Notes under the pieces: model-generated
Told to the model about the DNA's origin: nothing
Database searches by the model: none
Seen by the model: the letters and a program-made list of their open reading frames with translations, nothing else
Position numbers and translations under genes: made by a program
In this document: positions 13,274 through 25,457 of the stretch, piece after piece
How positions within the stretch are numbered: the stretch's first letter is position 1
Layout: the number at the start of each line of letters is the position of its first letter
NCBI GenBank assembly: GCA_030539935.1
Contig: JAUNXF010000007.1
Span: forward strand, 1 to 32,499
Reading direction: 5' to 3'
DNA length: 32,499 nucleotides
Origin: Methanobrevibacter sp.
GTDB taxonomy: Archaea; Methanobacteriota; Methanobacteria; Methanobacteriales; Methanobacteriaceae

Positions 13274-14776
13274 TTGTTTGATTCATTAAAGAAAAAATTT
13301 GCTGATGCAAGTGGTAAATTAAGAAATAAAGTCGAAGATGATGCTAAAAAAGAAAATAATGTAGAATTGCTTGAGGAATCTATTGAAGAATCTGTTGAAG
13401 AGTCTTTTGAAGATATTGAGGAAATTCCTGAAAGCGAATCTTCAGAGTCTGAAGAGCTTGAAGGTGAATCTTCAGAACTTGAATCTGTTGAAGAGTCTGA
13501 AGAGCTTGAAGATGAAGATGAGTTTGATGATTCAGAAGAAATTTCCGAAGAGGAATTGGATGAAATGTTAGAGGCTTCCTTAGAGGAAGATTCTGAGGAT
13601 AAAAATAAAAAAGAAAAGTCTACCTTCTTCGGTTTCTTAAAAAGAGATAAAAAAGATGATGTAAAAGAGGTGTCTGAGGATCTTGAAGATGAAGAGGGAT
13701 TCGAAGACATTGAAGAATCTAAAGAAGAAACTGAAGATCTGGCTGAGGATGAATCTTCTGAGCTTGAATCTGTTGAAGAGTCTGAAGAGATTGATGAAGT
13801 GGAAGAGGAATCCAAGAAATCTAAACGTTCCCTATTCCGTCGTAAAAAGAAAGAGGATTCTGATGATGATTCCAAGGATGAAGAGAAAAAGGAAAAGTCT
13901 GGCGGATTCCTATCATTCATTAAGGAAAAATCCATATCTGAAGATGATGTGGAGGACATCTTGTTTGAATTGGAATTGGGCCTCTTGGAATCAGATGTTG
14001 CAATGGATGTTTCAAGCGTTGTAGTCGAGTCTGTTAAGAATGACCTTGTCGGTCAAAAAATCAAAAGAAGCAGTGACATTGAGGCGTATACCTATGAGGC
14101 ACTTAAAAATGCAGTGGCTAAGATTATAGACATTGAAGGCAAGTCAATGACTGAATTGCTTGAAGAGAAGGTTGCCCAAGGGGAACCTCTTGTTGTAATG
14201 CTTGTAGGTATTAACGGTACTGGAAAAACCACCACTATCGGTAAATTGGCTAACTATTACATTAAAAAAGGTTACACCCCAGTTATTGCTGCATCAGATA
14301 CATTTAGGGCAGGAGCTATTGAACAGGTGGCTTTCCATGCAGACAATTTGGATGTCAAGCTAATCAAGCATGAAAAGGGATCTGACCCTGCAGCTGTTGC
14401 GTTTGATGCCGTTCAGCATGCCAAGGCTAAAGGAAAAGAGCTTGTTCTAATTGACACTGCTGGAAGAATGCAGACAAACACCAACTTGATGGATGAGATG
14501 AAAAAGATTCGCAGAGTCTCTAAACCTGATTTGGTCATATTTGTAGGTGATGCATTAACAGGAAATGACGCAACTGAACAGGCAAGAAAATTCAATGAGG
14601 CCATTGATATAGATGGTGTCATACTTACAAAGGCAGATGCCGATTCAAAAGGTGGTGCTGCACTTTCCGTTGGCTATATAATTAAAAAGCCAATCTTCTT
14701 CTTAGGTATGGGACAATCTTATGATGACATTAAGGAATATGATGCTGATTGGATGTTAGAGCAGATATTCTCTTAA
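13274..14776 (+). CDS. ftsY: signal recognition particle receptor FtsY
   Basis: A 500-residue SRP receptor GTPase that docks SRP-bound ribosomes at the membrane. The start is a TTG at 13274 with AGGCAGGGAT upstream, giving MFDSLKKKFADA, a basic amphipathic helix typical of the FtsY N-terminus. Residues ~30-205 are an unusually long acidic Glu/Ser/Asp region, broken by basic patches (FLKRDKKDD, KRSLFRRKKK) and containing a near-exact internal duplication. The N domain begins near residue 210, then the G domain: GINGTGKTT near 312, DTFRAGA, DTAGRMQTN near 393, TKADADSKGG near 452, and the closing GMGQSYDDIKEYDADWM. Archaeal FtsY usually has a shorter acidic A region. It follows pfdA, as in other euryarchaea, but a 419-bp spacer suggests its own promoter. 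Confidence 0.96.
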   Translation: MFDSLKKKFADASGKLRNKVEDDAKKENNVELLEESIEESVEESFEDIEEIPESESSESEELEGESSELESVEESEELEDEDEFDDSEEISEEELDEMLEASLEEDSEDKNKKEKSTFFGFLKRDKKDDVKEVSEDLEDEEGFEDIEESKEETEDLAEDESSELESVEESEEIDEVEEESKKSKRSLFRRKKKEDSDDDSKDEEKKEKSGGFLSFIKEKSISEDDVEDILFELELGLLESDVAMDVSSVVVESVKNDLVGQKIKRSSDIEAYTYEALKNAVAKIIDIEGKSMTELLEEKVAQGEPLVVMLVGINGTGKTTTIGKLANYYIKKGYTPVIAASDTFRAGAIEQVAFHADNLDVKLIKHEKGSDPAAVAFDAVQHAKAKGKELVLIDTAGRMQTNTNLMDEMKKIRRVSKPDLVIFVGDALTGNDATEQARKFNEAIDIDGVILTKADADSKGGAALSVGYIIKKPIFFLGMGQSYDDIKEYDADWMLEQIFS

Positions 14777-17298: not shown

Positions 17299-18780
17299 AT
17301 GGCATCTAGTAAAAGATCTGAGTGGAATAGTAATATTGCTTTTGTAATGGCAATGATCGGTTCTGCTGTTGGCTTAGGTAATATTTGGCGTTTCCCAAAT
17401 GTTCTGTATTCCAATGGTGGAGGATCATTTATGATTCCTTATATAGTATCATTATTCTTATTGGGAATCTCATTTGTATTGGTGGAATATGCAGTCGGAT
17501 TTAAATTCAAATCCTCTTTAATCAAGACATTATTCAGAGTCAAGTCTAATTTAGAGCCTGTAGCTTGGTTCATTGCACTTATTGTGTTTTTGATTACAAC
17601 CTATTACATCTGTGTAGTGGGCTGGGACTTAATATATGTTGTCTTAAGTTTCACTAAGGCATGGGGTTCAAATCCTGATTTGTTCTTTTCAAATAATGTA
17701 TTGCAGGCCTCCGATTCACTTTCAGGTATTTTTACTATTGTTCCATGGGTCTTCCTATCAGTGCTTGCCATTTGGGCAGTCGGATGGTTTATTGTGCAAA
17801 AAGACTTGAATGAGGGTATTGGTAAGGTAAGCAAGATTCTGCTCCCTATTCTCTGTGTCATTGTTGTTATCATTGTTGCATTTTCATTGACATTGCCTGG
17901 CGCTTCAATTGGTTATACTCAGATATTCACTCCAGATTGGTCTGCATTGACTAATCTTAATGTTTGGTTGGCTGCATTTGGCCAAATTGTATTTTCCCTT
18001 AGTTTAGGAATGTCAATTGCACTTACCTATGCAAGTTACCTTCCGGAAGGTTCCGAATTGACTAACAATGCTCTGATTGTAGCATTCTCCAATTCAGGAT
18101 TTGAAATATTCAATTCAATAGGAATATTTTCCATCCTTGGATTCATGACTCTATCAAGCGGCATTCCATTTAATGAATTGGTGACTGAAGGAACAGGCTT
18201 GGCATTTGTCGTTTTCCCAAAGGTCTTCAATATCATGGGTCCTTGGGCATCTGTAATTGGGCCATTGTTCTTCTTATGTATCTTATTTGCAGGCATTACA
18301 TCTGTAATGGCTCTGCTTGAGGTTGTGTGCTATTCAATCTCCGAGAAGTTTGACTTTTCAAGAAGGAAATCAGCAACAATTGTATGTGCTGTTGGATTCT
18401 GCATATCCTGCTTATTTGCAACAGCTTCTGGAAGCACACTCCTTGGAATATTTGATGCATTCTTGAATAACTTCGCCTTATTGTTTGCAATATTGATTGA
18501 GTGCATAATATTCGGTTGGATCTACAACTTCGACAATCTTGTTGAAACATTGAATAGGAATTCAACCATTAAGGTGGGCAGATTATGGAAAGCGGTGATT
18601 AAGTTCATTTTGCCAATCTGTATCTTTGGCTTATGGGCTCAAGGGGTTTACAACACTCTCTTAACTGGAGATTCTGTAAGTCATATAGTGATGCTCTGCT
18701 TGACTGTTGTTCTTATTGTAGTCCCTATTGTATTCACCAAATTGCCTGCCAAAAACAAGGATTTTTATAAAACAGACTAA
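17299..18780 (+). CDS. sodium-dependent transporter, NSS/SNF family
   Basis: A 493-residue LeuT-fold symporter expected to use sodium to import amino acids or similar solutes, with about 12 membrane helices. TM1 has the family signature GSAVGLGNIWRFP (residues 21-33), with N28 and R31 at the places of LeuT N27 and R30. TM6 has AAFGQIVFSLSLG. The region corresponding to LeuT N286 keeps Asn (AFSNSGFEI). TM8 has AGITSVMALLE, keeping the Thr/Ser pair of the Na2 site. By eye, therefore, both sodium sites look intact. Only a weak ribosome site (AGTGATT) precedes the ATG. The gene follows the antiporter after 288 bp with a large inverted repeat and has its own terminator, so it is probably monocistronic. 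Substrate unknown. Confidence 0.92.
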   Translation: MASSKRSEWNSNIAFVMAMIGSAVGLGNIWRFPNVLYSNGGGSFMIPYIVSLFLLGISFVLVEYAVGFKFKSSLIKTLFRVKSNLEPVAWFIALIVFLITTYYICVVGWDLIYVVLSFTKAWGSNPDLFFSNNVLQASDSLSGIFTIVPWVFLSVLAIWAVGWFIVQKDLNEGIGKVSKILLPILCVIVVIIVAFSLTLPGASIGYTQIFTPDWSALTNLNVWLAAFGQIVFSLSLGMSIALTYASYLPEGSELTNNALIVAFSNSGFEIFNSIGIFSILGFMTLSSGIPFNELVTEGTGLAFVVFPKVFNIMGPWASVIGPLFFLCILFAGITSVMALLEVVCYSISEKFDFSRRKSATIVCAVGFCISCLFATASGSTLLGIFDAFLNNFALLFAILIECIIFGWIYNFDNLVETLNRNSTIKVGRLWKAVIKFILPICIFGLWAQGVYNTLLTGDSVSHIVMLCLTVVLIVVPIVFTKLPAKNKDFYKTD

Positions 18781-18835: not shown

Positions 18836-18935
18836 TTCTATTTTAACTTTTTTTATTTTTTTTCATAGTTCAATTTTAACTTTTTTTATTTTTTTCATCG
18901 TTCCATTTTAACTTTTCTTAAATTTTTTCTTAAAA
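18836..18935. repeat. three ~33-bp tandem repeats between the two NSS genes
   Basis: Units start at 18836 (33 bp), 18869 (32 bp) and 18901 (degenerate end). Each opens TTC-x-ATTTTAACTTTT and runs into a T-rich tail; the first two end in CATAG and CATCG. They lie 3' of the first NSS terminator. Confidence 0.7.
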
Positions 18936-18967
18936 TAAGCAAATTTTTTAAATAATTAAAGCTTTAA

Positions 18968-18980
18968 TATAATTATATAA
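18968..18980 (+). promoter_or_regulatory. TATA-like region of the tailed NSS paralogue
   Basis: An AATTATATAATAA run at about 18970-18983, directly after a 14-bp palindrome (ATTAAAGCTTTAAT, 18955-18968), lies about 55 bp before the start codon. Transcription would begin near 19000, where CTTAC/GTAAG (19000-19004, 19015-19019) could make a small leader stem. Weak, positional evidence. Confidence 0.3.
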
Positions 18981-19032
18981 TAATAAAATTCTAAATTAAC
19001 TTACGAGATGTGATGTAAGATGGGTGATAATT

Positions 19033-21486
19033 ATGGTAAATAGATGGGATAATTCAACTGGCTTTTTAATAGCTATGATTGGAGCCATTATCGGATTGTC
19101 TGGGATTTGGAAATTTTCTTATCTCATGTATGAAAATGGTGGAGGAACATTCCTCATACCATATATTTTAGCTATTGTAGTCATGGCGATTCCTATTTTG
19201 GCATTGGAATTTGGAATAGGATTCAAATTTAAATCAAGCTTGCCTAAGATATTCTATAATATCAAATCTGAGTTTGAAATTATTGCTTGGTTTATTGTAT
19301 TCCTGATTTTCATAGTATTGATCTATTATACATGCATAATGTCTTGGGACCTTATCTACATCGTCCTTAGTTTATTTAAGGGATGGGGCGGCAATCCTAG
19401 TGTTTTCTTTACAACTACACTATTGCACAGCACCTCTAATCCATATGGTTTAACCTATCTTGTAGTTCCTATTGGAATAGGTCTGATAGTGGTATGGGGC
19501 TTGATTTATCTCTTCTCAAGAAAGGAAATCAATAAGGGAATATTGGCCATCAGCAAAATATCCCTAATATTGTCTTTTGTCTTGTTGTTGGGCATGCTTG
19601 TATTCTCTCTTCAATTGCCTGGGTCCCGCACTGGGATAATGGCGCTATTCAATCCGGATTGGTCTGTTTTATTGAATGTAAATGTTTGGCTGGCTGCATT
19701 TGGCCAACTGATATTCTCATACGGTTTAGGCTATGCAATAGCAAGCACATATTCCTCTTATATTCCAGAGGATGCCAAATTGATTGATTCTGCATGGATT
19801 ATTGTCTTGGTAAGCCTAATCTTTGAAGTGTTGGTTTCAGTTCTCCTATTTGCCATCATGGGCTATATGGCATTAGGAAGGAACATTCCTATAACCAGTT
19901 TGGTCAGCGACAGCTTTTCATTGATATTCGTTGTCTTCCCTAATGTTTTCAATATAATGGACCCATGGGTCTATATGGTGGCTCCAGCATTTTTCTTGCT
20001 TTTATTTGTTGGCAGCTTAAGCACCATTCTGGCCTTAATCGAGCCGTTGTCAAATGCAATCAGCGAGAAGTTTGGATGGAGCAGAAATAAGGCTGTCAGG
20101 CAACTTGTATTGGTCGGCTTATTCACTTCATTTATCTTTGCAACAGGTATGGGAGAATACCTTTTAAGAATCACAGACTCTTTCATAACTCAATTCGCAA
20201 TCATTTTAGGGGTTCTCCTTGAAATAATTGTTTTAGGTTGGGTTTATGACATTGAGGACATTCGCCTGTGCTTAAATGACAATTCATATATTAAGGTGGA
20301 CCAATCTTGGGTAATTACAATTAAGTTCATCATTCCAATCATTTTGACAATCATTTGGATTTTAGGGGTTTATGGCCTAATCCTTGTTGGAGATAGGCAA
20401 AGCCTGTTTGTCCAATCAATCATAGCTTCAATATTTGTCATTGTTCCTTTGGCATTAACTGTTATTCCATATAAGGTTGATTACTCTCTTGATTTATCAC
20501 AAGGGGGCAAGAATGGGGTCAATTACTTTAAAGAAAAGGAATATGTCGATAAAACCATGGATGATTATGCAGATGATTCTGATGAATCCAAGGAACATGG
20601 CTCATTGTTTGATAAAAATCCGTATAGTTCATTAAGGAACAGATTTAAAAGATCAGATAATGGGGATGATGAGATTGATGATGAAGATGATGAAGAATCT
20701 GACAGGAAATCAAAATCCAGACGTTTAAACAGGTTTGGAAGGTCTAAATCCAGTTCAGGTAAAAATGTGCTTAGAAATGTGGACCTGTCCTCTGAAGAAT
20801 TCGACTCCCCTTATGATGAAGATTTTGATGATAAGTACAATAATGGCAATTTTGATGAGTCACTCTCCAATTCCAGAAATCAATCAGACAATCCTAAAAA
20901 GAAATCAAAATCATTATTTGATAAGATAAACATGTTCAATAGGGATAAGGATGAGAATTTGGATGATGAATTCGATGATGACTTAAGCTTTGATGAGGAT
21001 TTCGGTGATGGGGATTATATCTCTCCTATCAAAGATAGAAAGTCCAATAGCCAAAGCAAGCCTAAGAAATCAAGGAATCATACATTCAAAAGTTCAGAAG
21101 ATGCAGATGTTTTTGATAATTTGGATTATTATGCTGAGGAACCTCAATCTAAAGCTCAGTCTAAAGCCCAATCCAAACCTAAATCTAAACCTAAATCCAC
21201 TTCTAAAAAACCTAAAGTTGAAGAGCCAATTGAGGAACCGGCTGAAGAGGACGAATATGATGACTTCAGTGATGATTTCTTTGATGATGGAGTATTTGGT
21301 GATGAAGGATATGAGTCACTATTGGATGATTATGTTGAAAAGCCTAAGAAAGCTAAGAAATCTTCCAGCAGTTCTTCTAAATCAAATTCCACTTCAAACA
21401 GGCCTAAAAGAAAATTGGATGATGAAGACGTATATTATGATTATGAAGGAAAAGGAGCAGATTCCGTTTTCAATTTGGATGAATAA
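19033..21486 (+). CDS. divergent NSS-family membrane protein with long acidic C-terminal tail
   Basis: An 817-residue protein. Residues 1-477 align by eye along their whole length with the upstream NSS transporter (about 12 helices). At the key places it differs. TM1 reads GLSGIWKFS where the upstream gene has GLGNIWRFP, so the LeuT N27 position is Gly, R30 is Lys and P32 is Ser. The N286 position is Ser (VSLIFEV), and TM8 reads VGSLSTI in place of AGITSVM, losing the T354 position. Residues ~480-817 are a cytoplasmic low-complexity tail rich in Asp, Glu, Ser, Lys and Asn, with SKAQ/SKPK repeats and a poly-Ser run. GGGTGATAATT precedes the ATG at 19033; an in-frame GTG lies at 19024. It may be a transporter of changed coupling or a nutrient sensor. 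Confidence 0.85.
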   Translation: MVNRWDNSTGFLIAMIGAIIGLSGIWKFSYLMYENGGGTFLIPYILAIVVMAIPILALEFGIGFKFKSSLPKIFYNIKSEFEIIAWFIVFLIFIVLIYYTCIMSWDLIYIVLSLFKGWGGNPSVFFTTTLLHSTSNPYGLTYLVVPIGIGLIVVWGLIYLFSRKEINKGILAISKISLILSFVLLLGMLVFSLQLPGSRTGIMALFNPDWSVLLNVNVWLAAFGQLIFSYGLGYAIASTYSSYIPEDAKLIDSAWIIVLVSLIFEVLVSVLLFAIMGYMALGRNIPITSLVSDSFSLIFVVFPNVFNIMDPWVYMVAPAFFLLLFVGSLSTILALIEPLSNAISEKFGWSRNKAVRQLVLVGLFTSFIFATGMGEYLLRITDSFITQFAIILGVLLEIIVLGWVYDIEDIRLCLNDNSYIKVDQSWVITIKFIIPIILTIIWILGVYGLILVGDRQSLFVQSIIASIFVIVPLALTVIPYKVDYSLDLSQGGKNGVNYFKEKEYVDKTMDDYADDSDESKEHGSLFDKNPYSSLRNRFKRSDNGDDEIDDEDDEESDRKSKSRRLNRFGRSKSSSGKNVLRNVDLSSEEFDSPYDEDFDDKYNNGNFDESLSNSRNQSDNPKKKSKSLFDKINMFNRDKDENLDDEFDDDLSFDEDFGDGDYISPIKDRKSNSQSKPKKSRNHTFKSSEDADVFDNLDYYAEEPQSKAQSKAQSKPKSKPKSTSKKPKVEEPIEEPAEEDEYDDFSDDFFDDGVFGDEGYESLLDDYVEKPKKAKKSSSSSSKSNSTSNRPKRKLDDEDVYYDYEGKGADSVFNLDE

Positions 21487-24605: not shown

Positions 24606-25457
24606 CTAATTGTTTTCGCTTTCATTGACTACTTCTTCTTCAACAATAGTAGGTTCCTGTTCTTTTACAGCTTCCTCTTCTTCTTCATTCCCTTTATCTT
24701 TAGCTTTCTTTTGCCTATAAAGTTCTTTAATTAATTCTATAATGTTCTTTTCAGTCAATAGGAGTAAGCTGTAGATTATTATAAGCAGCAAATTTATTTT
24801 TAGTTCTAGTATTCCCTCAAAATCAATTATAACTTCATTAAATCTAGGTTCTACAGTGAGCAGTGTTGGCTTTTTGCTGTTTACAATGGCGCCTATTGAC
24901 CAGATCCAACTTGCTATCTTTACAGTTGTTGTGTGGTCGCTAAGGCCGAGTATTAAGTGGCCTTCAAGCTTCTTTAGATTGATTGCCTTTAGAAGCTTAT
25001 TCAGGTAAGCCTTCAATTCCCTTTTAGATTTTTTCAGTTCCTTTAGTATTGGCTTATATTCCCTATACTTTTCTCTTAAGCTTTTTTCCTCTTCTTCCTC
25101 TTCAGGTTCTGAAGTTTTGTCATCTTCTGCCTTATCTTTTGAACTTTTGCCGGTTTGTGCCTTATCTTCAGATTTTGAACTTTTCTCTTCTGATTTGGCA
25201 TTTTTATCCTTAGATTTGGAGTCATCCTCTTCAGATTCTTCGGAATCTTCATCTGGATTGGACCTGATGATGTTGATTATTCCTTCATTTCCTGCTCTCT
25301 TAAAAATAGGTATTTTCAGTATGGTCACTTTAAATTCATATTTGACCATACCCTTTTCCTTTCCAACAGCCAAAAAGATTCTTATGCCGTTGTAAAGTAT
25401 GATGCAAAATATGAGAATTAAGGCGATTAATATAATTAAAAAAAGATTAAAGTTCAT
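24606..25457 (-). CDS. DUF2953 membrane protein (YtfI-like)
   Basis: A 283-residue protein with an N-terminal hydrophobic helix (residues 4-28), an amphipathic region (KYEFKVTILKIPIFKRA), a low-complexity Ser/Lys/Glu/Asp segment (about 67-125), a helical basic stretch, and the DUF2953 core (GLSDHTTTVKIASWIWSIGA, then TVEPRFNEVIIDFEG). A second hydrophobic helix (about 220-240) and an acidic tail follow. In Bacillus the DUF2953 protein YtfI is encoded beside YtfJ/GerW, the same pairing as here (98-bp gap to the GerW gene upstream). Their molecular function is not known. AAGGCGATGAAAA precedes the ATG. The long acidic linker interrupts the usual spacing between the first helix and the core. Confidence 0.78.
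   Translation of the reverse strand: MNFNLFLIILIALILIFCIILYNGIRIFLAVGKEKGMVKYEFKVTILKIPIFKRAGNEGIINIIRSNPDEDSEESEEDDSKSKDKNAKSEEKSSKSEDKAQTGKSSKDKAEDDKTSEPEEEEEEKSLREKYREYKPILKELKKSKRELKAYLNKLLKAINLKKLEGHLILGLSDHTTTVKIASWIWSIGAIVNSKKPTLLTVEPRFNEVIIDFEGILELKINLLLIIIYSLLLLTEKNIIELIKELYRQKKAKDKGNEEEEEAVKEQEPTIVEEEVVNESENN

Follow-up and report, generated by a model that had tools for sequence, protein, structure and literature searches.

Transporters that also act as receptors have been studied in depth in fungi, whereas few are found among prokaryotes. The protein described here, NSS2, is closest to the NSS/SLC6 family (PF00209; LeuT, MhsT and the neighbouring NSS1), with which it shares common ancestry, the 12-helix LeuT fold and mostly retained gates; it departs from that family in the loss of the Na1 ligands and of the GX9P proline, in relaxed TM5 and TM6 helices, in a tail of ~340 residues and in a score below the Na_transp cut-off. 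CbrA, the SLC5–histidine kinase transceptor of Pseudomonas, resembles NSS2 in that a LeuT fold without the usual Na+ dependence is combined with a long cytoplasmic output part (PMC13022988). CbrA belongs to SLC5, however, transports histidine and carries folded STAC, PAS and kinase domains, whereas NSS2 is an NSS equipped only with a motif-bearing tail that is predicted to be disordered. The yeast transceptors Gap1 and Mep2 (PMC6597760) are comparable solely in their manner of working, a transporter-type protein signalling through its cytoplasmic termini. They come from other families and transport their substrate, which sets them apart from the reading of NSS2 preferred below. To our knowledge, no tail sequence is common to NSS2 and Gap1 or Mep2. 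Eukaryotic SLC6 members such as DAT also combine an NSS core with long cytoplasmic extensions, which are implicated in regulation and interactions (PMC6597760 and general knowledge). DAT differs from NSS2 in that it keeps both Na1 and Na2 and transports. We know of no homology between the tails of DAT and NSS2. Literature searches for Methanobrevibacter NSS yielded no description of NSS2, nor was any mention of it found in the M. ruminantium M1 papers by the terms used.

The window (the whole stretch of DNA that was analysed, 32,499 nt) makes up one 32.5-kb contig in the draft genome (completeness 75%) of a Methanobrevibacter-type methanogen, the named relatives of which include M. olleyae and rumen MAGs. 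Four NSS genes in total are present in this genome, and the following features of the window frame the analysis:

17299..18780, forward strand: NSS1, an intact NSS with canonical Na1 and Na2 residues, used as comparator (PF00209 match and LeuT alignment)
18925..18995, forward strand: conserved AT-rich block 5' of NSS2, putatively promoter-like (intergenic alignment)
19033..21486, forward strand: NSS2, an NSS-derived protein of 817 aa with a cytoplasmic tail (ORF and PF00209 match)
19033..20463, forward strand: 12-helix LeuT-fold core of NSS2, residues 1–477 (AlphaFold2 pLDDT about 90+ over most of it)
20464..21483, forward strand: predicted disordered tail of NSS2, residues 478–817 (AlphaFold2 and composition)

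The open reading frame, its coordinates and the intact tandem NSS neighbour, all reported in a first-pass annotation of this DNA, were confirmed. NSS2 matches PF00209 with 210.5 bits (gathering score 27, E 5.9e-62); with NCBIfam NF037979 (Na_transp) it reaches 46 bits, below the curated cut-off of 50, and NSS1 reaches 73.9. Translation probably starts here at the ATG at 19033, which is preceded at a distance of 5 nt by GGTGAT, a sequence resembling a methanogen ribosome-binding site. The start in relatives is an ATG equivalent to 19020 (window region 19020–19035), which is out of frame here by way of a 2-base difference (ATG GGT GAT AAT TAT GGT AAA TAG); this difference could alternatively be an assembly error.

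The AlphaFold2 model was built from a 62-sequence alignment (a 17-row alignment gave a pLDDT of 61.5). Its core gave Foldseek TM-scores of 0.83–0.86 to LeuT entries, and the best PDB matches were NSS structures, in agreement with the 12-helix NSS framework that the annotation had described as kept. NSS2 is an NSS by descent and fold; it is 41% identical to NSS1 over 479 residues without a gap. Functional sites were compared by alignment of 18 NSS2 and 59 other NSS sequences to LeuT, the sequence of which was verified against PDB entries:

19087..19104, forward strand: Na1 changes in TM1, I19 (LeuT A22) and G24 (LeuT N27), from the LeuT alignment
19111..19113, forward strand: K27 at the position of LeuT Arg30 in the extracellular gate (among 18 NSS2, 13 have K, three Q and two R)
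19567..19569, forward strand: I179 at the TM5 GX9P proline (LeuT P200), Pro in 59/59 other NSS and lost in 14/18 NSS2
19717..19725, forward strand: unwound region of TM6 with S229 (T254) and G231 (S256), from the LeuT alignment
19813..19815, forward strand: S261 at the Na1 residue Asn286, Ser in 18/18 NSS2 and Asn in 59/59 others
20011..20025, forward strand: Na2 region of TM8 with G327, S330 and T331 (LeuT A351, T354 and S355), hydroxyls kept

The canonical Na1 set (A22, N27, T254, N286) is absent from NSS2, which has I, G, S and S at these positions. Across all 18 orthologues A22 is replaced by I or V, N27 by G or S and N286 by S, whereas N27 and N286 are unchanged in the 59 other NSS; at 18/18 against 0/59 for N27 and N286, the loss is more than chance. 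The substitutions A22I, N27G and N286S proposed from the window were thus borne out, and the LeuT alignment likewise confirmed R30K. The change of Pro32 to Ser is present as well (S29), but it is not diagnostic, as many intact NSS have Ser there. For Na2 (carbonyls of G20, V23 and A351, hydroxyls of T354 and S355) the corresponding residues are G, I, G, S and T; the earlier reading, with Val at A351 and Leu at T354, was off by one position, the true changes being A351G, T354S and S355T. Because the gapless alignment to NSS1, the alignment to LeuT and a HMMER alignment to fly DAT agree, the Na2 hydroxyls are taken to persist in NSS2. Oxygen donors thus return at Na2 as Ser and Thr, and at Na1 Ser stands in place of Asn286, so that the claimed loss of sodium-site donors holds in part. 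The hydroxyls are kept in 15/18 NSS2 and lost in G003, G013 (both G/G/A at the A351/T354/S355 equivalents) and G012 (A/V/A), and the Na2 residues are conserved no better than random TM positions. Judged from these alignments, the clade is one in which Na1 is lost throughout and Na2 is drifting.

The TM5 GX9P motif has been described as completely conserved in NSS, and SERT P288L, the equivalent of the proline lost here, has a Vmax of ~1% and a 15-fold lower Km (PMC11988846); NSS2 keeps G169 of this motif and has I179 for the proline. Among family-invariant positions, 8/17 of those serving ion, substrate or gate were lost in NSS2 versus 7/73 of the others (Fisher p 0.001). The gates Y108, F253 and D404 are mostly kept, and the NSS2 main clade retains L25, F253, E290 and, in most members, Y108. 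Because two of the tested family features, Na1 and GX9P, are lacking, the name sodium symporter should be avoided for NSS2.

Median pairwise dN/dS values of 0.091 for NSS1, 0.065 for the NSS2 core, 0.053 for the tail motifs and 0.20 for the tail linkers were obtained; in view of the low ratio of the core relative to NSS1, NSS2 is under purifying selection and is not decaying. The distribution of constraint was compared between NSS2 and NSS1 in the same 17 genomes, each protein relative to its own mean. TM6 and TM5 were found relaxed in NSS2 (p <0.005), whereas EL2 (p 0.0005), EL5 (p 0.014) and TM12 (p <0.0003), and also IL1 and TM4, were tightened, these permutation p-values being approximate because the tests assume independent sites and the sequences share ancestry. 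Three of the tightened regions are:

19378..19464, forward strand: EL2, residues 116–144 (relative entropy 0.44 in NSS2 versus 1.17 in NSS1)
20137..20151, forward strand: EL5, residues 369–373, invariant in the 15 main-clade genomes
20395..20463, forward strand: TM12, residues 455–477 (relative entropy 0.85 in NSS2 versus 1.92 in NSS1; 0/4000 permutations as low)

Of the 15 positions of the substrate pocket, NSS1 has all 15 invariant, the NSS2 main clade 10 and NSS2 as a whole 2. Within the 15-member main clade the conservation of the pocket modestly exceeds that of random TM positions (p 0.04), and the pocket differs throughout between the main clade and a subclade from horse faeces. Such a shift of constraint is expected if the job of NSS2 is no longer set by the transport pathway but by its outer loops and by the helix that runs into the tail.

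The tail of about 340 residues, noted previously as acidic and disordered-looking, was confirmed as such by its composition (57 D, 50 S, 42 K and 31 E in 333 residues) and by a pLDDT <50 over nearly all of residues 492–817; each of its 60-residue windows also falls below the Uversky boundary. Relatives carry a conserved tail in the same frame, so that an origin by frameshift does not apply. Six near-invariant short motifs recur in it in fixed order, separated by low-complexity linkers of variable length and content. The motifs, all defined by orthologue comparison, are:

20761..20811, forward strand: motif 1, KNVLRNVDLSSEEFDSP, residues 577–593
20908..20940, forward strand: motif 2, KSLFDKINMFN, residues 626–636
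21013..21030, forward strand: motif 3, DYISPI, residues 661–666, main clade
21079..21096, forward strand: motif 4, HTFKSS, residues 683–688, with an invariant Phe
21256..21333, forward strand: motif 5, YDDFSDDFFDDGVFGDEGYESLLDDY, residues 742–767, the most conserved of the six
21433..21483, forward strand: motif 6, YYDYEGKGADSVFNLDE, residues 801–817, C-terminal

In a divergent subclade, where core identity falls to about 48%, motifs 1, 2, 5 and 6 persist; outside the main clade motifs 3 and 4 are not clear, except for the invariant Phe of motif 4. All six look like docking motifs. A search of the other proteins in five genomes gave no match to the motifs. The tail contains no Pfam domain, and no signalling or catalytic domain, STAC and histidine kinase included, is fused to NSS2. 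Kinship with the N-terminal region of the FtsY gene was considered and set aside, the similarity being weak and taken as one of composition only. That gene (window 13274–14773) encodes an FtsY-like SRP receptor GTPase with a region of about 200 residues before its SRP54_N domain. In a membrane protein at 24606–25457 of the window, the N-terminal helix is followed by an insert rich in Glu, Ser and Lys, the composition of which resembles that of the NSS2 tail; no match to the tail motifs was seen in it.

An NSS2 orthologue was found in 18/19 searched genomes of its Methanobrevibacter genus, with the tail included except in G004, where a contig end cuts the gene before the tail. In the remaining genome (G018) only 213 bases of contig follow NSS1, so that NSS2 may lie beyond the contig end. 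The ORF is intact in every complete copy. The 18 sequences form one clade (SH-aLRT 100, stem 0.67 changes per site, in a quick tree in which deep placement is uncertain), which is consistent with a single origin. Family- and phylum-level searches outside the genus with the protein, a core profile and a tail profile returned ordinary short NSS only; tailed cores scored 729–911 bits with the core profile and the next NSS 544. Over the 139 genomes of the family the tail profile matched the same genus only, apart from one weak match (G042, E 0.008), which sits in a large open frame of 1639 aa and was treated as chance. Searches with four tail segments in one or five genomes gave no convincing second carrier. 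One further candidate, on a contig labelled Actinomycetes (pig4.14; L112 3881–5516), was rejected: an AI-2E-like permease is joined there to the tail at FDDKYNR, and since these letters could belong to both sides, the contig is most likely an assembly chimera of a bacterium and Methanobrevibacter. Separately, a run of six consecutive NSS genes, all of the same orientation, was observed in another genus of the family (G119, L079 1436–11602).

NSS1 is the preceding neighbour of NSS2 in 17/17 genomes showing both. The expectation that the pair would be conserved as neighbours thus stood, but the adjacency lies in a long block of conserved gene order, together with the FtsY-like gene, an NhaC-like antiporter and an acetolactate-synthase-like enzyme. 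In the divergent genome G009 the order FtsY–antiporter–NSS1–NSS2 is kept and the downstream genes differ, and in another genus the NSS1 orthologue occurs alone in a different gene setting. The gap between the two genes measures 231–1257 nt, with T-rich runs after NSS1 and the conserved promoter-like block before NSS2. In G012 only, a 176-aa ORF with a J-domain-like start (MAEINYYDILMVNGNTSKDQIKKSY) lies between them (L058 9160–9690). In G003, a single contig of 2,937,203 bases, NSS1 (L053 7736–9073) is broken off upstream of TM12 by a TGA in frame behind residue 446, past which its homology continues (a real lesion or a sequencing error), and NSS2 is intact.

The reading that we prefer, to which we give slightly better than an even chance on the strength of sequence comparison, is that NSS2 is a neofunctionalised NSS that is not coupled to Na+ and whose tail gives it the role of a receptor or docking scaffold in the membrane. 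The fuller version, a non-transporting archaeal NSS-derived receptor or scaffold of one gut-methanogen clade that signals through a disordered tail of conserved docking motifs, is offered tentatively, with odds somewhat short of even. The 12-helix core would be a membrane-embedded, probably oligomeric unit without normal Na+-coupled alternating access; either a residual pocket or the outer face would sense a ligand and shift the state of the core, or the core would merely serve for anchoring and oligomerisation. TM12, leading straight into the tail, would relay this state, and the tail motifs, placed in the cytoplasm because the number of helices is even, would bind cytosolic partners. The annotation's reading of a sensor or uncoupled carrier is partly supported: the loss of Na1 coupling, the fold and the disordered tail agree with it, the loss of both sodium sites does not stand for this protein, and "sensor or altered carrier" is still the right class of idea.

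Against the preferred reading, the Na2 hydroxyls in 15/18 orthologues and the modest conservation of the main-clade pocket leave room for ligand binding or transport. NSS2 might accordingly still be a carrier with altered coupling (Na2-only, H+ via Glu290, or uncoupled) that the tail regulates or localises; Glu290, Leu25 and Phe253 are kept in the main clade, and other LeuT-fold proteins work without Na+, CbrA having Lys in the Na2 site (PMC13022988). The loss of the GX9P proline in 14/18, the relaxation of TM5 and TM6, the loss of Na2 residues in three orthologues together with their conservation at no more than the level of random TM positions, and pockets that differ between main clade and horse-faeces subclade make such a carrier unlikely, though it is the main rival. 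That NSS2 is an ordinary transporter with tolerated site changes and a non-functional low-complexity extension would suit its strong fold and PF00209 match and the variable linkers; this is very improbable given near-invariant tail motifs at a dN/dS of 0.053 and the concerted, clade-wide loss of invariant residues. A decaying pseudogene would account for the lost functional residues and is refuted by purifying selection, with intact frames in all complete copies and a core evolving under a lower ratio than NSS1; its probability is practically negligible.

A regulatory subunit in a heteromer with NSS1 is suggested by the constant adjacency and by LeuT crystal dimers, which use TM9, TM12 and EL2 (PMC7893171), two of which are constrained in NSS2. 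EL2 and TM12 are, however, among the more variable regions of NSS1, without matching constraint, TM9 is unconstrained in NSS2, synteny extends over the entire block, NSS2 has a promoter-like block of its own, and in G003 the NSS1 frame stops short of TM12 although NSS2 is intact. On these grounds the functional pairing with the active neighbour that had been proposed was not upheld, and the heteromer is considered improbable; with EL2 and TM12 constrained in NSS2 and not in NSS1, an NSS2 oligomer or another partner is likelier than an NSS1–NSS2 dimer.

The GX9P loss, the shift of constraint and the conservation of the motifs go beyond the first-pass annotation and lend further support to its idea of a sensor or altered carrier. 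If the preferred reading is true, an archaeal NSS would have been stripped of some of its transport parts by evolution, with constraint moved to loops, TM12 and tail, and NSS2 would offer an experiment of nature on what transport requires of the fold. It would also represent a signalling-type use of the neurotransmitter-transporter fold that is specific to one clade of gut methanogens. The tail motifs, being short and near-invariant, are suited to peptide pull-downs, and the hosts of NSS2 are rumen methanogens, which are of interest for methane mitigation.
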